Origin: Dethiobacter alkaliphilus AHT 1
Lineage (GTDB): Bacteria; Bacillota; Dethiobacteria; Dethiobacterales; Dethiobacteraceae
Direction: 5' to 3'
DNA length: 49,425 nt
Assembly: GCF_000174415.1 (NCBI RefSeq)
Contig: NZ_ACJM01000018.1
Span: forward strand, 1 to 49,425
Shown here: one piece after another, positions 13,986 through 46,841 of the stretch
Layout: the number at the start of each line of letters is the position of its first letter
Position numbering within the stretch: position 1 is the stretch's first letter
Program-made: the position numbers and the translations under genes
The notes under the pieces: model-generated
Seen by the model: the letters and a program-made list of their open reading frames with translations, nothing else
What the model was told of the DNA's origin: nothing
Databases searched by the model: none

Positions 13986-14125
13986 AAAGGTGAAAAAGGC
14001 AAACGTTCTGAAAGGAACGGGCGCAAAGCCACGGGTCTAAAGCCTTAAAAGGCCATGATAGCCGGGTTGCCCCATGTCTATAAAGTAAAGCCTTTTTCTG
14101 TCATGCAGAAGAAGGCTTTGTTTTT
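13986..14125 (+). promoter_or_regulatory. c-di-GMP-I (GEMM) riboswitch with terminator
   Basis: The aptamer (about 13988-14076) contains the hallmark blocks in order: GGCAAACG, a CTGAAAGG tetraloop hairpin, GGGCGCAAAGCCACGGG, the TCTAAAGCC arm, then ATGATAGCCGGGTTGCC. It is followed by a terminator with a 14-bp stem (14087-14100 with 14106-14119, one G-T pair) and a T-run. The regulated operon encodes an HD-GYP protein, CheW and a chemoreceptor. Confidence 0.93.
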
Positions 14126-17756: not shown

Positions 17757-18728
17757 ATGCCCATATCTATTTTTAAAAAAGGCGATAAAGAAAAAATCGA
17801 TATACAGGAAGTATTTAACATCTGGAATGTTCTAAGAGCAAGATATTACAGCATGGAAACCGTAAAGTTTTTCATGAACTTTGTCCATGACCGTGAATTC
17901 GACTTGGTTTTAAACCGCTTGTTAAATCATTATGAGACACAGGCACTCATTCTGGAACAGGAAGGAAAAAAATTCAAGATAGAGGTCCCTAAGAGGCCTC
18001 CGTACAAAATAAAAACATCAGCGCAGGTTGATGTGATTACGGACAGCTATATATTTCGTAATATATACAACGGTGTCGTGTCGCAGTTATTTTCCCTGAT
18101 GACTGCATATCGTTCAACCACAACAAATGATCACTTGAGAGGCATTCTTAAAGATGACCTGATACAGCATCTAAAAGATTTCGAGATACTCTATAAATAC
18201 GGAAAACTAAAAGGATGGCAGGAAGATCCCCCCGCTTTTAAGTCTATGAAACCCGTGGGTAATGAGCCTTTGTCCACAACGGAGGCATTTCATCTTTGGG
18301 ACAACATAAGTCAGAGATATCAACAATCACAACTCACAGACTTTTTTCTCGGCTTTGCGCATGACAAAGATTTCAGGGCTGTTTTAATGCTTGGCAAGAA
18401 AACATTAGATAAGCAGGCAAGGAAACTGGAAGAGGAGGCTGTTAAATTTGAAATAGCCTTACCCGAGCGGCCCCCTTCTCATGTATCGGTTCCCATGGAT
18501 CCGGAACCAATGCAGGACAGGTATATGTTTAATAGAATATTTACAGGTATTCAGGAAGCAGTCGATTTGCATATCCGCGCTACGATTGAAGCCATCAGAA
18601 ATGACTCATTACGTCACATGATGATGAACTTTTGGCTGGATGAAATAAAGATATATGAAGCGGTGCTTAAATATGGAAAGATGAAAGGGTGGGTGACCAC
18701 CCCGCCGCTTTACAACGAACCACAGTAA
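17757..18728 (+). CDS. DUF3231 family protein (tandem ferritin-like domains), paralogue 1
   Basis: A 323-residue soluble protein made of two homologous halves of about 160 residues. Each half has W..L..RY near the start (EVFNIWNVLRARYYSMETV; EAFHLWDNISQRYQQSQLT), a FVHDREF/FAHDKDF segment, a KRPP/ERPP motif, and ends in KYGK.KGW...PP. This is the DUF3231 layout known from bacilli and clostridia, predicted to be ferritin-like helical bundles; function unknown, sometimes linked to sporulation. No signal peptide. ATG 17757 has a weak upstream AGGTGG. A paralogue lies at 24326. Confidence 0.78.
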   Translation: MPISIFKKGDKEKIDIQEVFNIWNVLRARYYSMETVKFFMNFVHDREFDLVLNRLLNHYETQALILEQEGKKFKIEVPKRPPYKIKTSAQVDVITDSYIFRNIYNGVVSQLFSLMTAYRSTTTNDHLRGILKDDLIQHLKDFEILYKYGKLKGWQEDPPAFKSMKPVGNEPLSTTEAFHLWDNISQRYQQSQLTDFFLGFAHDKDFRAVLMLGKKTLDKQARKLEEEAVKFEIALPERPPSHVSVPMDPEPMQDRYMFNRIFTGIQEAVDLHIRATIEAIRNDSLRHMMMNFWLDEIKIYEAVLKYGKMKGWVTTPPLYNEPQ

Positions 18729-24325: not shown

Positions 24326-25306
24326 ATGTTAGGGCTTTTAGGGCAAAAAAAACAACCGACTCAGGTGGATTTCCAAGAGGCATATAATCTGTGGGACGCG
24401 CTTTCTTCCCGTTATGATACAATTCAACAAGTTCAAATCTGGCAGAACTTTGTCCACGATCCCGATTTTCACCTTTTGTTAAAAAACTCGCTAATGAAAG
24501 TAATGGATGAGCAGGCTAAGAAGATTGAAGAATTAATGGATAACTACCAGCTTGCCCTACCCAAAAGACCACCTAAAAGTGTCCGTACCCCAGCGAATAC
24601 TGAAGCATATGAAGACAGGTTTATCGCAGGCAGTATCATATCTATGGTCCAGGAAAATGTAACACAACAATTGCGGTTTATTCGTACGTCTTTGACGAAC
24701 GACTCATTAAGAAGCGTGTTTACTAATTTCCTCAGGGAAGAAATTGAGCTGTACGACAAAGCTTTAAAGTATGTAAAGGTTAAGGGTTGGCTTGGACTTC
24801 CTCCCATGTATAAGCAGGTGCCACCGGAAAACAAGGAGTATCTTGACGCAGGAGAAGCATCTCATATTTGGGACCACCTGAGTTCCAGGTATGACTCTAT
24901 AGATAAAACGCAAAAATACCATAACTTTGCCCATGATGTTGATTTTAAAGCGATGCTTCTGCTGGGTCTGCAAAAAACACTGGAAAAGCAGGTTAACATC
25001 CTTGAAAAAGAATGTAACCACTTTGGAATTTCATTGCCTTTAAGGCCTCCAAAGAGTGTAAACATGACTGAAGGCATGGAACTGTTCGAAGATGAATCAA
25101 TGTATCGTGATGTTTTTACCGGAATGCAATTTATGATAGAGCTACATGCAACAGCAATAAAACAATGTACTACAAACGATAGAATAAGAAAGATTTATAT
25201 CAAATTTATAGAGGAAGAGCTATCAACATTAAATGTATGGGTAAAATATGGGAAAGTAAAGGGTTGGCTAAGACCCGTACCAATGTATAAGGTCGGTAAT
25301 AACTGA
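24326..25306 (+). CDS. DUF3231 family protein (tandem ferritin-like domains), paralogue 2
   Basis: A 326-residue two-repeat protein of the same architecture as 17757-18728: EAYNLWDALSSRYDTIQQV / EASHIWDHLSSRYDSIDKT, FVHDPDF / FAHDVDF, KRPPKS / LRPPKS, and KYVKVKGWLGLPPMYK / KYGKVKGWLRPVPMYK. The start ATG 24326 has a GGGGG-type site 10 bases upstream. The halves are more alike than in paralogue 1. Function unknown. With paralogue 1 it brackets the chemosensory fusion and kinase, and is followed by repeat R2. Confidence 0.78.
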   Translation: MLGLLGQKKQPTQVDFQEAYNLWDALSSRYDTIQQVQIWQNFVHDPDFHLLLKNSLMKVMDEQAKKIEELMDNYQLALPKRPPKSVRTPANTEAYEDRFIAGSIISMVQENVTQQLRFIRTSLTNDSLRSVFTNFLREEIELYDKALKYVKVKGWLGLPPMYKQVPPENKEYLDAGEASHIWDHLSSRYDSIDKTQKYHNFAHDVDFKAMLLLGLQKTLEKQVNILEKECNHFGISLPLRPPKSVNMTEGMELFEDESMYRDVFTGMQFMIELHATAIKQCTTNDRIRKIYIKFIEEELSTLNVWVKYGKVKGWLRPVPMYKVGNN

Positions 25307-25544: not shown

Positions 25545-25816
25545 TAGACTTAAACTATTGAATGAGGGTAGTAACTATAAGTTGCTTTATCTTCAGAGAG
25601 CCGCAGGTGCTGGAATTGCGGTGGTAAAGTTTATAGTGAATGGGCTCATGAAGGCGATGCAGAAATTCTTGTGATGAGTATGCTAGCCGGGAATTCCACC
25701 CGTTATCAATGGAACATGTATGATCGTACATGAAGCGAGAGGCATTTTATGCAATTTGGGTGGTACCGCAGAGACTAGAGTCTTTGTCCCTTACTATAAG
25801 GACAAAGACTTTTTTA
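25545..25816 (+). promoter_or_regulatory. T-box leader, probable Trp specifier, with terminator
   Basis: Stem I contains the AGTA element (25570-25573), AGAGAG (25595-25600), the GGTGCTGG apical element and GTGAA followed directly by TGG (25641-25643), the likely specifier for Trp. The antiterminator T-box is GGGTGGTACCGC (25758-25769). The terminator is AGTCTTTGTCC (25779-25789) / GGACAAAGACT (25800-25810) with a T-run. Uncharged tRNA should favour read-through into the downstream trpB-type gene. Confidence 0.9.
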
Positions 25817-28966: not shown

Positions 28967-29052
28967 ATAAAAAACTCCTGCCAAAATATACATGGCAGGA
29001 GCTATTAGCACATTGTGCGGTTTGGGCAATGCCCCGGCGAGCTCCATCGCCT
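28967..29052 (-). promoter_or_regulatory. Fluoride (crcB-motif) riboswitch with terminator
   Basis: Read on the minus strand from 29052: GGCGATGGAGCTCGCC, a mini-hairpin GGGGCATTGCCC, AAACCGC, a small hairpin GCACAATGTGC, then TAATAGCTCC. GGCGA/TCGCC and GGAGCT/AGCTCC are the conserved helices of the crcB motif. The terminator CTCCTGCCA (29001-28993 side) / TGGCAGGAG with a T-run reuses the aptamer's 3' strand, so fluoride binding and termination exclude each other. The aptamer starts at the predicted transcription start. Confidence 0.86.
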
Positions 29053-29060
29053 TAATTAAA

Positions 29061-36850: not shown

Positions 36851-36998
36851 TTTGTGCGGGTTTTGTTTTTGTCGAAATACGCGATGATGTTAAGGTCTTG
36901 TTAATGTAAATGAGCAGGAATATTTGGCTAATCCGCGAATAGAAGAATATTGGGAATGCGACTTTGCGTGTGCGCAAAGGGAGAAAAGGGGTGAAGCT

Positions 36999-37976
36999 AT
37001 GCGAGTCGGAATTCCAATGACATTGTCATTTTTTACGTTCTATCCTCTCTGGAAACCGTTTTTTGAGGGATTGGGTGCGGAAGTAGTGGTTTCACCCATC
37101 TCCAACAAAGCACTTCTGGATGAAGGGGTTAAAGAAACAGTAAACGATGCCTGTGTCCCTATTAAGCTGTTACACGGACACGTATCTGCATTAAAAGACA
37201 AAGTAGATATTCTGTTTCTGCCCCGCTTGGTTTCTCTGGATGGGAAAAACACACTGTGTCCAAAATTTTTGGGCCTTCCTGATATGGTGAGATATTCCAT
37301 TTCTGAACTGCCGGAAATCATAGAAAACCGGTTGGACATGAAAAAGAGCAGGTTTGAATTGTATCGCTTTATGTTCCGGGTGGGGCAGCGGTTTACAGAT
37401 AATAAGCTGCAAATCCTGCGGGCAATCTGGCAGGCAAGGTATAATTTTTCCCGCTACAGGAAATTATTATTACATGGTTTGACTCCCGCCGAGGCGTTTC
37501 CGCTTTTGGAAAGTGGGGAAGAGCCTGACAAGGCGGCGGAAACCGGGGATGCTATAAAGCTGGCGGTACTGGGTTATCCATATGCTCTCTATGACAATTA
37601 TGTCAGCGTGGGCTTATTGAAGAAGCTGAAGGAACATGGTGTTAATGTTGTGACACCGGAGATGGTTTCGGAAAAAGATTTGAAAAAGATGAGCAAAACG
37701 TTGCCCAAGAATCTTTTCTGGTATTATAGCAACCGGGTGGTTTGGGCTGCTCAGCATTACTTGCGCGACCAAACGGTGGACGGTATGATTCATGTGACGG
37801 CCTTTGGCTGTGGCCCCGATGCCATGACCAACAGGCTCATTGAACTGGAAGCAAAGGAAAACAGTCAGATCCCCTTGATGTCCATTACCATTGACGAGCA
37901 CACCGGGGAAGCCGGTGTGGCTACACGGGTGGAAGCTTTTGTGGACCTTTTAAAAAGAAAGAAGGGGATACTATGA
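36999..37976 (+). CDS. DUF2229-type activase-associated FeS protein, subunit 1
   Basis: A 325-residue protein; ATG 36999 (MRVGIPMTLSFFTFYPLWKP) is five bases after AAGGGGTG, and an upstream in-frame start would add 25 atypical residues. It contains exactly three cysteines: Cys52 (NDACVPIK), Cys87 (NTLCPKF) and Cys271 (FGCGPDAM). The C-terminus SITIDEHTGEAGVATRVEAFVDLL is shared with the next gene. Matches the proteins annotated as acyl-CoA dehydratase activase-related (DUF2229), which in other genomes are fused to the activase. Three Cys suggest one [4Fe-4S] cluster, as in 2-hydroxyacyl-CoA dehydratase subunits. The actual substrate is unknown. The end overlaps the next gene by four bases. 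Confidence 0.84.
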   Translation: MRVGIPMTLSFFTFYPLWKPFFEGLGAEVVVSPISNKALLDEGVKETVNDACVPIKLLHGHVSALKDKVDILFLPRLVSLDGKNTLCPKFLGLPDMVRYSISELPEIIENRLDMKKSRFELYRFMFRVGQRFTDNKLQILRAIWQARYNFSRYRKLLLHGLTPAEAFPLLESGEEPDKAAETGDAIKLAVLGYPYALYDNYVSVGLLKKLKEHGVNVVTPEMVSEKDLKKMSKTLPKNLFWYYSNRVVWAAQHYLRDQTVDGMIHVTAFGCGPDAMTNRLIELEAKENSQIPLMSITIDEHTGEAGVATRVEAFVDLLKRKKGIL

Positions 37977-39052
37977 AGATTTCATTTCCTTATATGGGGA
38001 CTTCGCATATCGCTATCAGCTACCTGCTGGAAAACCTGGGGCACGAGGTTATTTATCCTCCCAAGCCCACTAAAAAAACACTCTCTTTGGGTGTGCAGCA
38101 TTCGCCGGAGTTTGCCTGCCTGCCTTTTAAAATACTTATGGGAACATATCTGGAGGCGGTGGAGGCAGGTGCCGACAGCCTTACTACTTCCGGTGGTTTT
38201 GGCCCGTGTCGGGCCGGTTATTATGGGGAGCTGCACAAACGCATTCTCCATGATATGGGTTATCCTGTAAAGATGCTTGTGCTGGAGCCGCCCCTGATGG
38301 CTCCGCTTACTTTTTACCGTAATGTAAAAAGCCTGGTGCGGCCCACTTCCAGTTGGACTAACTTCTACCGTGTCTTTCGTGTGGCGTGGGAAAAATTGCG
38401 GGCGCTCGATGAATTGGAAGGGTTGCTCCATGAATTACGGCCCCTGGCCGTGTCCAAGCAGCAGATTACAAAGACGTATGAGCGTGGCTTGGGATATATT
38501 GACGATGCCGGTTCGGTGTCTAAGGTTTTGGAAGCAAAGGATGCGGCTCTTCAGGATATGCGAGCTGTACCGGTGGATGAAACGTTTACACCGCTGAAAA
38601 TTGGTATTATCGGCGAAATCTATGTGGTGCTGGAGCCGTTTGTCAATCATGATATTGAAAAGATGTTGGGAGATATGGGCGTGTATGTGCACCGCTCAAT
38701 CTTTCTCACCAACTGGACCAAAGATAATGCGGTATCCAATGGTGAAAAAGACATTCGGGCAATGGCCGTTCCCTACCTTAATCAGTTGGTGGGGGGGCAT
38801 GGACAAAACAGTATTGGCGAGACTGTGATTTATGCCAATAAGGGTTTTGACGGGGTGATCCAGCTGGCTCCCTTTACCTGTATTCCGGAGATTGTGGCCA
38901 AAAGTATTATGCCCACCATTACCCGTGATAAAGGAATACCGGTAATGACGCTGTTTTTGGATGAACAGACCGGCCGCGCAGGTGTGGAAACAAGGATGGA
39001 AGCATTTTTAGATTTACTGAAGGAGAAGCGCAATAAGCAGGAGGCGATTTGA
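37973..39052 (+). CDS. DUF2229-type activase-associated FeS protein, subunit 2
   Basis: A 359-residue paralogue of the previous protein, started by an ATGA overlap. It also has exactly three cysteines in matching places: Cys49 (EFACLPFK), Cys79 (FGPCRAGYYG) and Cys303 (PFTCIPEIV), and the same ending MTLFLDEQTGRAGVETRMEAFLDLL. These patterns resemble the cluster-binding segments of 2-hydroxyacyl-CoA dehydratase/benzoyl-CoA reductase HgdB-type subunits. With subunit 1 it may form a heterodimer that receives electrons from the activase encoded next. Often annotated as CoA protein activase; function not established. Confidence 0.84.
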   Translation: MKISFPYMGTSHIAISYLLENLGHEVIYPPKPTKKTLSLGVQHSPEFACLPFKILMGTYLEAVEAGADSLTTSGGFGPCRAGYYGELHKRILHDMGYPVKMLVLEPPLMAPLTFYRNVKSLVRPTSSWTNFYRVFRVAWEKLRALDELEGLLHELRPLAVSKQQITKTYERGLGYIDDAGSVSKVLEAKDAALQDMRAVPVDETFTPLKIGIIGEIYVVLEPFVNHDIEKMLGDMGVYVHRSIFLTNWTKDNAVSNGEKDIRAMAVPYLNQLVGGHGQNSIGETVIYANKGFDGVIQLAPFTCIPEIVAKSIMPTITRDKGIPVMTLFLDEQTGRAGVETRMEAFLDLLKEKRNKQEAI

Positions 39053-40020
39053 TGGATGCATACTTAGGCATTGATGTTGGCTCGGTAAGTACCAATATGG
39101 TAATTATCAATGAAGAAGGCCAGGTGCTGGCCAATCTGTACATGCGCACCCAGGGACAGCCCATTAAAGCTGTACAGGAAGGGATGCGCAAGGTTGAAGA
39201 GGAAATCAGAGGCAAGAATGTTGAGATATGTGGTGTGGGAACCACCGGTAGTGCCCGGACTTTAACCGGTGTTATTGTGGGTGCCGACACTGTGAAGAAT
39301 GAGATCACCGCCCATGCGGTGGCAGCTTCGTTTATGGTGCCCGATGTTCAGACCGTTCTTGAAATCGGTGGACAGGATTCCAAAATTATATTGCTGCGGG
39401 ACGGCATTGTTGTGGATTTTGCCATGAATACCGTCTGTGCCGCGGGAACCGGCTCATTTCTTGACCATCAGGCAGAACGGCTCAACACACCTATTGAGGA
39501 GTTTGGCTCCCTGGCACTGCAAAGCAAGGGGCCGGTGCGAATTGCCGGACGCTGTTCCGTTTTTGCCGAGTCGGACATGATCCACAAACAGCAGATGGGG
39601 CACTCTGCTCCAGATATTATCGCCGGGCTTTGTGACGCGCTGGTGCGCAATTACCTAAACAATGTAGGTAAGGGTAAGGAAATCCTTTCCCCCGTTGTAT
39701 TTCAGGGCGGCGTGGCGGCTAATGTGGGGATCAGGGCGGCGTTTGAAAAGGCGCTGGGTGTAGACATCGTTATCCCGGAGCACTATAGTGTGATGGGTGC
39801 TGTTGGTGCTGCGCTTTTAGCAAAATCTACGGCCAAAGAAAAACAAAAAACAGATTTCCGCGGCTTTGCTGTCTCGGAGATGGACTATCAGGCGTCTAGT
39901 TTTGAGTGTCAGAGCTGCCCCAACTTATGCGAGATTGTTAATATTTCCGTGGATGATGAGATTCTGGCCCGCTGGGGTGGAAGATGCGGTAAGTGGGAGA
40001 CGCTGCAGAAAACAGGGTAG
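39052..40020 (+). CDS. Acyl-CoA dehydratase activase (BadF/BcrA/HgdC ATPase family)
   Basis: A 322-residue ASKHA-fold ATPase that starts at ATG 39052 inside a TGATG stop-start overlap, with CAGGAGG upstream. Nucleotide loops: GIDVGSVSTNMVI (6-18), GVGTTGSAR (61-69), LEIGGQDSK (103-111) and GGVAANVGI. The bridging [4Fe-4S] ligands of the dimer are Cys129 (NTVCAAGTGSFL) and Cys168 (GRCSVFAESD). A C-terminal extension with CQSCPNLC and GGRCGKW may hold another metal site. These activases use ATP to inject one low-potential electron into a partner enzyme. No classical dehydratase is in the window, so the two upstream proteins are the likely partners. Confidence 0.93.
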   Translation: MDAYLGIDVGSVSTNMVIINEEGQVLANLYMRTQGQPIKAVQEGMRKVEEEIRGKNVEICGVGTTGSARTLTGVIVGADTVKNEITAHAVAASFMVPDVQTVLEIGGQDSKIILLRDGIVVDFAMNTVCAAGTGSFLDHQAERLNTPIEEFGSLALQSKGPVRIAGRCSVFAESDMIHKQQMGHSAPDIIAGLCDALVRNYLNNVGKGKEILSPVVFQGGVAANVGIRAAFEKALGVDIVIPEHYSVMGAVGAALLAKSTAKEKQKTDFRGFAVSEMDYQASSFECQSCPNLCEIVNISVDDEILARWGGRCGKWETLQKTG

Positions 40021-44002: not shown

Positions 44003-44045
44003 TTGCGCAGAATGCTAAACTATGGTAGAATCCGGTTGTATACAA
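44003..44045 (+). promoter_or_regulatory. Promoter with small palindrome upstream of HTH operon
   Basis: TTGCGC (44003-44008), 17 bases, TAGAAT (44026-44031). The palindrome TTGTATACAA (44036-44045) follows at the start-site region and is a candidate site for the HTH protein encoded next. Confidence 0.55.
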
Positions 44046-44080
44046 TTTTGTGCACATGAATAAAGATAGAGGTAAGAGCT

Positions 44081-44629
44081 ATGGAGTTTGTGCGAATTGG
44101 TGAAAAACTTATTAACGTGGCAAAAATAGATGAAATTGTGCGCCGTATAGTGAAGATGCGCAGCGAAGGATTGTCGCAGCAGGAAGTTGCGGCCAAATTG
44201 CAACTGGACAGGACATTTATTTCGCGCCTGGAGTCCATTGGCAGTGTAAGGAAGGGCGGTTGCCTGGGCCTCATGGCTTTTCCGGTGGAAAACAAGGAAG
44301 AGCTGAATGATTTGGCCGACCGCTATGGTATTGAACAGCGCCTGATTTTATCAGACAATGAACGCTGGCAGCTGGTTAAGGGCGGCAGCGGTATAGACTT
44401 TTTTAACCATGCCATTAGCATAATCGAGCAGTTTCAGCAGTGTGACATAGTTTTAGTATTTTGTTCGGCAAAATGGAACCGTCTGGCGGCGGCACTTTTG
44501 GATAATGAAGTGTTGACCACGGAAATTGGGCCTTCGCCCATTACCGGCGATGTTTATGTGAATCCACAAAATGTGGAGAATATGCTAAAGCCGTTTATGC
44601 AGGACAGCTATGGGGAGGGAAAACGGTGA
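44081..44629 (+). CDS. HTH-domain protein heading the acyl-ACP-reductase-like operon
   Basis: A 182-residue protein. The N-terminal part has an HTH (KMRSEGLSQQEVAAKLQLDRTFISRLESIGSVRKGG, about 26-62), like the DNA-binding part of Cro/KorB-type regulators. The rest (about 65-180; GCLGLMAFPVENKEELNDLADRY, IDIVLVFCSAKWNRLAAALL pattern) is an uncharacterised alpha/beta domain. GTGA overlap with the next gene. I do not recognise a characterised family; it is probably the regulator of the three-gene unit. Confidence 0.68.
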   Translation: MEFVRIGEKLINVAKIDEIVRRIVKMRSEGLSQQEVAAKLQLDRTFISRLESIGSVRKGGCLGLMAFPVENKEELNDLADRYGIEQRLILSDNERWQLVKGGSGIDFFNHAISIIEQFQQCDIVLVFCSAKWNRLAAALLDNEVLTTEIGPSPITGDVYVNPQNVENMLKPFMQDSYGEGKR

Positions 44630-45531
44630 AGCAAGTTATTAGTATCAGTCTTGGTTCCTCTAAGCGGAACCATGCGGTGGAAGTGGAAATGGCAGGAGAG
44701 CTGTGCCGGGTGGAAAGAATCGGTACCGACGGTGATATGGCCAAAATGGTGGAGATGATCTCCAGGCTGGATGGTAAGGTTGATGCTTTCGGGCTTGGCG
44801 GTATGGATCTATATGTATATGCCGGTCAGACGCGCTACATTCTGCGCGATGCCAAAAACGTGGTGCGGGCTGCAAAGCTTTCCCCCATTGTTGACGGCTC
44901 CGGGTTAAAGAATACCCTGGAGCGGAAAGTAATTGAATATTTACTTGAACAGACTGAAATTCTAAATGAAAATACAAAGGTGCTGATGATGTCCGGCGCA
45001 GACCGGTTTGGCATGGCACAGGCCCTTGATGCGGCCGGTTGCAGGTTAACTTTGGGTGATTTGGTATTTACGGTGGGGATTCCGGTTCCTTTGCGCTCAC
45101 TGCAGGCGCTGGAAAAGGTGGCACGATTACTTGCTCCGTTTATCTGTCAGCTTCCCTTATCCATGTTGTATCCCACAGGGAAAAAACAGGAGGAAAACAA
45201 GCCTAAAGCCTCCGGACTGTTTGCCGAGGCTGATGTTATTGCAGGGGATTTCCATTTTATCCGGCGGTACATGCCGGAGAATATGAAAAACAAAACAATC
45301 ATCACAAACACCACCACCAGTGATGATGTGGCCCTGTTAAAAGAGCGTGGCGTTGCAACCCTTATCACCACAACTCCTGAATTAAACGGGCGCTCCTTTG
45401 GCACCAATGTGATGGAGGCGCTTTTGGTGGCTCTGTCGGGTAAAGATCGCGAGCTGGATTCAGGGGAGTATGAAGCGTTACTTGATGCGGTAAATTTTGT
45501 CCCGCGTATTACAAATTTGAATGAGGTATAG
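44626..45531 (+). CDS. Conserved protein of unknown function, sometimes annotated quinate 5-dehydrogenase
   Basis: A 301-residue protein from GTG 44626. Near the N-terminus is SISLGSSKRNHAVEVEMAG; then GLGGMDLYVYAGQTRYILRDA, AAKLSPIVDGSGLKNTLER and, in the second half, VIAGDFHFIRRYMPENMKNK, TITNTTTSDDVALLKERGV and TTPELNGRSFGTNVMEALL. I see no GxGxxG-type Rossmann loop, so the dehydrogenase label sometimes given to such proteins is doubtful. It always travels here with the acyl-ACP-reductase-like gene, nine bases downstream, which suggests a common pathway. Confidence 0.6.
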   Translation: MKQVISISLGSSKRNHAVEVEMAGELCRVERIGTDGDMAKMVEMISRLDGKVDAFGLGGMDLYVYAGQTRYILRDAKNVVRAAKLSPIVDGSGLKNTLERKVIEYLLEQTEILNENTKVLMMSGADRFGMAQALDAAGCRLTLGDLVFTVGIPVPLRSLQALEKVARLLAPFICQLPLSMLYPTGKKQEENKPKASGLFAEADVIAGDFHFIRRYMPENMKNKTIITNTTTSDDVALLKERGVATLITTTPELNGRSFGTNVMEALLVALSGKDRELDSGEYEALLDAVNFVPRITNLNEV

Positions 45532-45540
45532 GAGGGCATC

Positions 45541-46629
45541 ATGGGAGATTTTGCTTTTATAATTCATCCAATTGAACTGGATGATGTTTTCAGGAAATTA
45601 AAATTTATGCGCAGCTGGCCTGTGCCGGTGGTGGAAACGGTAGTTAAAGCACTGCCACCGTTTAAAGTTTCGGAGATAACCGGTGTGCAGTCGGATTATG
45701 CGCAAACATCAGGACACTTTGTTTCCTGCCCTCTGACCTCAAAACAGATGGTGGAGCTTCCGGAGGATAAAGTTATAAATAAAATTATCCGGGCCGGGAA
45801 AGTGGCGGAGAAGCTGGGCGCAAAAATTGTCGGCCTTGGTGCCATGACATCGGTTGTGGGCGATGCCGGTATCACCGTTGCCAAAAATCTTGATATTGCA
45901 GTGACTACCGGAAACAGCTATACGGTGGCCACGGCTTTGCAGGGCACGAAAAAGGCAGCAGAGTTAATGGGTATCGATCTTGCCAACGCAGAAGTGTTGG
46001 TTATGGGAGCCACCGGTTCCATCGGCAGCGTTTGTGCCAGAATTCTGGCCCGGGATGCCCGGTTTTTAACTCTTCTGGCCCGTGACAAAAATAAACTTGA
46101 TCTATTATCGGCTCGCATTATGCGGGAAACAGGTCTGGCCACAAAAGTCTCTTCCGATGTTAAGCGCTCGGTACAGCGGGCTGATATTATTATAGCGGTT
46201 ACCGGATCTGCAGAAGCGGTGATTGACGTGATGGATCTGAAACCCGGGGCCATTGTCTGTGATGTGGCCCGACCCCGTGATGTATCCAAACGGGCCGCTG
46301 AGCTCCGTGATGATGTGCTGGTCATCGAAGGTGGTGTGGTGGATGTGCCGGGAGATGTGGATTTTGGATTTAACTTCGGTTTTCCGCCGCGCACATCGTA
46401 CGCCTGTATGGCAGAGACCATGATTCTGTCCCTGGAGGGCAAGTATGAGTCCTTTACATTGGGAAGGGATTTGTCTGTTGCCCAGGTAGATGACATCTCC
46501 CGCCTGGCGGAAAAACACGGCTTTAAGATTTCCGGTTTTCGTAGCTTTGAACGGGCTATTTCTCCGGAAACCATCGAGAACATTCGCAAAAATGCTCAAC
46601 GCAATACGCAGAAACTGTCACAAAGCTAG
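45541..46629 (+). CDS. Homologue of long-chain acyl-ACP reductase (cyanobacterial AAR type)
   Basis: A 362-residue protein behind AGGAGGGC. Compared from memory with cyanobacterial AAR, it shares order and spacing: VTTGNSYTVA (121-130; AAR has FTTGNTHTA), the dinucleotide loop VMGATGSIGS (154-163), LLARDKNKL (178-186), VIEGGVVDVPGDVDF (261-275), YACMAETMILSLEGKYESFTLGRD (287-310) and AEKHGFKISGF (323-333). Cys289 matches the AAR acyl-thioester cysteine in ACFAEAML. AAR reduces fatty acyl-ACP to aldehyde with NADPH. No aldehyde-deformylating oxygenase is nearby. Alternative label: shikimate-dehydrogenase-like oxidoreductase. Confidence 0.75.
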   Translation: MGDFAFIIHPIELDDVFRKLKFMRSWPVPVVETVVKALPPFKVSEITGVQSDYAQTSGHFVSCPLTSKQMVELPEDKVINKIIRAGKVAEKLGAKIVGLGAMTSVVGDAGITVAKNLDIAVTTGNSYTVATALQGTKKAAELMGIDLANAEVLVMGATGSIGSVCARILARDARFLTLLARDKNKLDLLSARIMRETGLATKVSSDVKRSVQRADIIIAVTGSAEAVIDVMDLKPGAIVCDVARPRDVSKRAAELRDDVLVIEGGVVDVPGDVDFGFNFGFPPRTSYACMAETMILSLEGKYESFTLGRDLSVAQVDDISRLAEKHGFKISGFRSFERAISPETIENIRKNAQRNTQKLSQS

Positions 46630-46656
46630 CCAGGTAATCCCTGGCTATTTTTTTTG
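46627..46656 (+). terminator. Intrinsic terminator after the reductase-like gene
   Basis: TAGCCAGG (46627-46634) / CCTGGCTA (46640-46647) around TAATC with a nine-T run; it overlaps the stop codon. Confidence 0.93.
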
Positions 46657-46701: not shown

Positions 46702-46841
46702 TTGACAAAGAATAATTCCTGTTTTATAATGGACTAGAAAAAATTGCAAATCATAAGCTGTAATAATTGGGCGCGGACTAGCCATAATAGGAAAAAGTAA
46801 AATATTGTTTTTTGAGTTGAATCGCCGTTTTGGCGATTCGT
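46702..46841 (+). promoter_or_regulatory. Consensus promoter and long leader of greA
   Basis: TTGACA (46702-46707), 17 bases, TATAAT (46725-46730). The transcript would have a leader of nearly 300 bases. It contains a perfect hairpin GAATCGCC/GGCGATTC (46819-46839) followed by a T-rich stretch, then repeat copy B. Whether a separate small RNA ends at this hairpin is open. Confidence 0.8.

Follow-up and report, generated by a model that had tools for sequence, protein, structure and literature searches.

Described relatives of the reductase

The best-scoring curated family for the protein encoded at positions 45541-46629 is that of PigE, TamH, and KecF, which belong to prodigiosin, tambjamine, and koreenceine biosynthesis, respectively. 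PigE has been experimentally linked to reduction of a thioester and subsequent transamination (PMC8341465). For TamH, both activities, reduction and transamination, were proposed or shown, and a test with acyl-CoA yielded no amine (PMC9594044). Cyanobacterial acyl-ACP reductase (AAR; TIGR04058, 6JZU) is of the same fold family. Carmabin TAD (9e4x) and glutamyl-tRNA reductase have related reductase folds and match the protein more weakly in sequence.

All coordinates given here refer to Dethiobacter alkaliphilus AHT 1, contig NZ_ACJM01000018.1, positions 1-49,425 of the forward strand; this whole stretch of 49,425 nucleotides is called the window. The reductase has the catalytic cysteine, the GxxGxxG motif, and the NADPH site in common with PigE, TamH, and KecF, and the TamH order (transaminase-reductase) occurs in other Bacillota under the operator found at this locus. 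Unlike in the three described systems, reductase and transaminase are encoded by separate genes in D. alkaliphilus, the reductase is paired with a protein of an unnamed family (the 44626 family), and it resides in a conserved dus-greA-lysS neighborhood rather than in a biosynthetic cluster. A reductase, a family lacking a curated name, and a dedicated switch are kept side by side across much of the Bacillota, and our literature searches found no study of them.

Organization of the operon

Three forward-strand genes make up the operon: an HTH regulator of 182 aa (44081-44629), the 44626 family protein of 301 aa (44626-45531), and the acyl-thioester reductase of 362 aa (45541-46629), assigned by homology to the PigE/AAR (COG5322-type) family. 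The first-pass annotation had described the genes as coupled, and their junctions bear this out. The HTH gene, with its stop codon at 44627-44629, and the second gene, with a GTG start at 44626, overlap by 4 bp (GTGA), and a 9-bp gap, at which AGGAGG is found, separates the second gene from the ATG of the reductase at 45541. A candidate -10 box, TAGAAT, was read from the sequence at 44026-44031, and most relatives have a TAAAAT/TAGAAT-like element 5' of the operator. Because TAGAAT went unscored in a consensus promoter scan, the operon promoter is regarded as presumptive. The operator, an imperfect inverted repeat with the sequence TGTATACAATTTTGTGCACA, follows at 44037-44056. An intrinsic terminator (46627-46655; 8-bp stem with 5 GC pairs) closes the operon; its stem begins at the reductase stop codon and is followed by a T8 run. 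The top promoter of the region in the scan, TTGACA-17-TATAAT (46702-46730), lies 3' of the terminator and 5' of greA. The arrangement of the three genes as one autoregulated operon is well supported.

No RNA element was detected by Rfam within the operon. Elsewhere in the window, Rfam located a c-di-GMP-I riboswitch (13988-14074), a T-box leader (25549-25794) just 5' of a TrpB-like gene (25842), and, on the minus strand, a fluoride riboswitch (28989-29060) that overlaps an antiporter-like gene at its called 5' end.

The protein encoded at 45541-46629 is probably an acyl-thioester reductase

In NCBIfam, the PigE model (NF053554) matched residues 47-357 of the reductase with an E value of 1.7e-64 (218.5 bits), followed by acyl-ACP reductase (8.7e-34) and HemA (4.4e-9). 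The top matches in a PDB sequence search, well outside what chance would give, were PigE (4ppm, 7e-34) and AAR (6jzq, 1.3e-25), and carmabin TAD was weaker (5e-9). The motifs on which the first-pass annotation had relied, VTTGNSYTVA, VMGATGSIGS, YACMAETM with Cys289, and KHGFK, are all present. Cys289, the catalytic cysteine, aligns with C294 of S. elongatus AAR, whose residue roles were mapped as described (PMC7089970). C289, E292, and R309 are invariant in 62 of 62 orthologues. The NADPH-phosphate residues R189, R193, and R314 of AAR correspond to R181 (R in 58 of 62), K185 (K or R in 54 of 62), and R309, and AAR and the reductase also have GATGxIG in common. Unlike AAR, the reductase carries an arginine, Arg244, at the position of the substrate-binding Tyr247, and this arginine is found in all 62 orthologues. 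Among the three tested AAR positions that contact aldehyde-deformylating oxygenase (ADO), R73, R79, and K80, which correspond to P74, N80, and K81, K80 alone is kept.

The curated cut-offs tell a similar story. The reductase scored 117 bits with TIGR04058, the model for cyanobacterial long-chain acyl-ACP reductase, more than 330 bits short of the cut-off of 449.7; S. elongatus matched as a control, with one control above the cut-off. The full PigE equivalog cut-off of 850 bits, which includes a fused transaminase, was not reached by this stand-alone protein. The PigE and AAR scores and the retained cysteine and NADPH residues, combined with loss of Tyr247 and of most ADO contacts, argue for chemistry of the AAR/PigE type in a protein that is not the cyanobacterial equivalog. 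The former designation as a cyanobacterial-type AAR is thus upheld as far as membership in the AAR superfamily, the cysteine, and the NADPH loop are concerned; the cyanobacterial attribute is not, since PigE/TamH-type models score better, TIGR04058 is missed, and Tyr247 is lost.

The sole Pfam match above cut-off was Shikimate_DH (1.3e-9), which would fit a shikimate/quinate dehydrogenase or glutamyl-tRNA reductase, names that an automatic annotation could assign. We regard such an identity as scarcely credible. In the profile check that the first-pass annotation had proposed against these families, PigE and AAR models scored about 80-180 bits above HemA, and AroE was far lower; the curated cut-offs of HemA (35.8 versus 209.55 bits) and AroE (20.8 versus 285 bits) were both missed. 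In addition, the context of the AAR catalytic cysteine and the NADPH residues are kept, and PF01488 has far stronger matches at other places in this genome.

In a quick tree, stand-alone Bacillota reductases mostly clustered together, separate from a well-supported clade of transaminase-fused proteins. S. elongatus AAR and PigE formed long branches, the placement of which is unsure. One metagenome-assembled genome labeled Armatimonadetes (L062) has a reductase nested with that of Desulfovirgula, pointing to mis-binning or transfer.

As the first-pass annotation had noted for the window, ADO is missing: a profile search with PF11266 found none in the genome, and the S. elongatus positive control matched. 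Alkane synthesis through ADO is therefore unlikely; of the tested ADO contacts, two out of three are missing, which points the same way. More generally, AAR chemistry yields a fatty aldehyde, which could be destined for ether lipids or plasmalogens, wax, or alkanes, and a split HgdB/BadF cluster at 36924-40020 resembles parts of PlsA. Few relatives were found to have this cluster close to the reductase, and bacterial plasmalogens are described as coming from diacyl lipids via PlsA-type reductases (PMC9702350), so that no free aldehyde would be required. We consider these fates of the aldehyde improbable. No evidence links the locus to the plasmalogen, wax, or signaling uses suggested earlier; the regulon described below points to amine-forming steps.

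The 44626 protein has a predicted AAR-like fold

Searches of Pfam, NCBIfam, and PDB sequences yielded no significant match for the 44626 protein. Its AlphaFold2 model (mean pLDDT 90.9) was most similar, among the PDB chains compared, to S. elongatus AAR (6jzq), with Z 15.6 and an rmsd of 3.8 over 247 aligned aa that span residues 3-300. Carmabin TAD (9e4x) followed with Z 13.6, and other dehydrogenase folds ranged from Z 10.6 downward. Homology to AAR was undetectable in sequence: hhalign probabilities were 0.2-6.6% with narrow and broad profiles, column-shuffled profiles scored just as high, and an alignment of the consensus sequences gave nothing reliable, its register differing from the one chosen by eye. 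It is the modeled fold, then, that suggests kinship of the 44626 protein with AAR.

Across 58 orthologues, 49 residues are invariant, and many of them are polar or charged, suggesting that the protein has its own ligand or reaction. The family has no invariant cysteine; when SFGTNVME is matched by eye to YACMAETM, an asparagine (N261) would occupy the cysteine site. As we infer its role, the 44626 protein is probably an obligate AAR-fold companion, acting either as a partner subunit or as an enzyme that belongs to the same pathway and has a polar active site.

The HTH regulator and its operator

Residues ~13-54 of the regulator form an XRE-like HTH domain (HTH_3, E value 5.6e-4, under the curated cut-off). 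They are followed by a Rossmann-like alpha/beta domain (residues 55-178; AlphaFold2 mean pLDDT 87), for which structural comparison gave generic matches (best Z 7.1) and no clear fold relative. The regulator family is conserved in relatives. Of 68 regions upstream of HTH genes, 65 contain a site that matches at least 14 of the 18 positions of the operator consensus TGTACACAA-NN-TTGTGCACA, mostly directly 3' of a -10-like element. Shuffled controls (n = 1360) reached a maximum of 14 of 18, twice. The site at 44037-44056 is the only strong one in the 3.1-Mb genome; the next-best sites have 3 mismatches, the same level as a reversed-pattern control. Exact-pattern scans of two partly overlapping sets of 80 genomes detected sites in 31 and 32 genomes, respectively, and the reversed control pattern gave no match in either. 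Literature searches on the operator half-site and on the name "quinate 5-dehydrogenase" returned nothing relevant, and the 20-bp operator is presented here as new. Judging from position, the HTH protein would repress the operon from 44037-44056, and as a putative autorepressor it would respond to lipid state through a presumed ligand.

Distribution of the operon and decay of the reductase slot

Thermoanaerobacter, Sporomusa, Moorella, relatives of Dethiobacter, and other bacteria share, with local variation, the gene order dus-HTH-44626-reductase-greA-lysS. Synteny of the operon was seen in dozens of Bacillota, and as a rule the reductase operon stands alone. Among 299 genomes drawn evenly from the phylum, 154 encode the reductase (E < 1e-60), and every one of these 154 also has a 44626 family member, counts that ignore shared ancestry. 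The functional tie between the two proteins that the first-pass annotation had supposed gains support from this co-occurrence and from their shared operator. In 39 of the 299 genomes, a 44626 protein is present and no reductase match, strong or middling, was found; the slot in some reductase-less genomes reads dus-HTH-44626-greA-lysS. Where 44626 has gone from the slot, it is retained at another locus. The relocated 44626-type gene adjoins a gene for an SCP2 lipid-binding protein at four loci (L132, L134, L150, L151), and an amino-acid permease gene comes next at three of these.

In several lineages, the reductase beside 44626 has kept its gene position and lost the catalytic cysteine, which is replaced by Gly (L155), Asp (L156), or Ala (L157). 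Other slot proteins of 296-357 aa are strongly diverged; L183-L187 are weakly similar to the reductase, and no similarity was detected for L195 and L196. Most genomes with a decayed slot also encode a transaminase-reductase fusion in the TamH order. The neighbors of such fusions revealed no common function. The combination of a decayed slot with a fusion elsewhere suggests that catalysis moved and that the slot protein kept a role.

The retention of cysteine-less reductases beside 44626 is what would be expected of a structural partner. Together with the AAR-like fold of 44626 and the short gaps to the adjoining reductase, it makes it conceivable, if somewhat doubtful, that the 44626 protein is a non-catalytic twin of AAR that pairs with the reductase in a heteromer and of which the fold alone is needed, a role compatible with the pathway favored below. 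Against this stand the persistence of 44626 in the 39 genomes mentioned above, its many invariant polar residues, and its lack of significant sequence homology to AAR.

Operator targets in other genomes

Targets were assigned by direct reading of the locus or by distance to known genes. The operator precedes four transaminase-reductase fusions at distances of 4 bp (L193), 50 bp (L199), 101 bp (L201), and 19 bp (L256), and it lies 18 bp 5' of one relocated 44626-type gene (L134). It is missing from some other genes of both kinds, and none was found 5' of the relocated 44626-type genes L132, L133, L135, and L136. In one genome (G138), it precedes a stand-alone class-III transaminase (L279), the best family of which is the transaminase part of PigE. 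In eight genomes, it is located 5' of a gene for an alpha-oxoamine synthase resembling serine palmitoyltransferase (SPT; L245-L250, L252, L253), usually followed by one for a dehydrogenase resembling threonine dehydrogenase (TDH). Seven of the eight have no recognizable reductase, and G278 has a divergent one. The SPT-like proteins score below every curated cut-off; their operons resemble a long-chain version of kbl-tdh, with serine palmitoyltransferase (8guh) as the other comparison, and a sphingoid-base-like route is possible. Once, the operator was found 5' of a fabH-fabK-fabD operon (L251, G102). Use of acyl thioesters is common to the operator targets, most of which also attach an amino group.

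The fab target, the prevalence of the lone reductase operon, and the SCP2 gene adjoining 44626-type genes in some genomes would also agree with a valve for lipid homeostasis, in which the HTH protein senses acyl-ACP or acyl-CoA and the reductase drains the excess to aldehyde or alcohol with no dedicated amine. We deem this unlikely; it leaves unexplained why enzymes dependent on PLP, be they fused transaminases, a lone transaminase, or SPT-like proteins, recur under the operator.

Proposed pathway to a long-chain amine

The reading that we favor, to which we give about an even chance, is an autoregulated operon that leads from an acyl thioester via an aldehyde to a long-chain amine, with 44626 as companion. 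Judging from its homologues AAR and PigE, the reductase would accept the acyl group of an acyl-ACP or acyl-CoA on Cys289 and use NADPH to reduce the bound thioester to the aldehyde. A class-III transaminase would most likely then aminate the aldehyde to a long-chain amine or amino-lipid precursor. Relatives have the transaminase fused to the reductase or placed under the same operator; in reductase-less lineages, SPT-like and TDH-like enzymes are found under it instead. We infer the acyl chain length, the amine product, and the direction of regulation.

In D. alkaliphilus, the transaminase is probably encoded on contig C8 (88571-89947). It shares 61% identity with the operator-linked L279 and 42-47% with the transaminase domains of the fusions, compared with 29-36% for three other class-III loci of the genome. 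No operator was found in its region or at any second gene of this genome; because the transaminase lacks an operator here, the amine step rests on homology in this organism. An SPT-like enzyme is absent from the genome (best match 1.4e-5).

On a wider and more tentative reading, which we think possible at rather less than even chances as a whole, a single HTH repressor and its operator would define a Bacillota regulon, widespread and for the most part inherited vertically, for a new long-chain amine or sphingoid-like amino lipid. Two interchangeable routes, reductase plus transaminase or SPT-like enzyme plus dehydrogenase, would lead to it, with 44626 obligatory to both. The SPT-like and fab targets may differ in product from the reductase, and the common factor may be acyl-thioester use. 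If the amine reading is true, these bacteria contain an unrecognized class of membrane or signaling amino lipid, and a pathway can be assigned to an unnamed protein family found throughout the phylum. Because the operator is exactly defined, the regulon lends itself to direct tests.

Other genes in the window

The cluster at 36924-40020 consists of three adjoining genes, for DUF2229/HGD-D, HgdB-like (by eye), and BadF-type ATPase components, and as a whole resembles a split PlsA-type enzyme or a 2-hydroxyacyl-CoA dehydratase. Two similar proteins of ~325 aa, encoded at 17757-18728 and 24326-25306 and apparently consisting of two repeats each, flank two large sensor-type genes.
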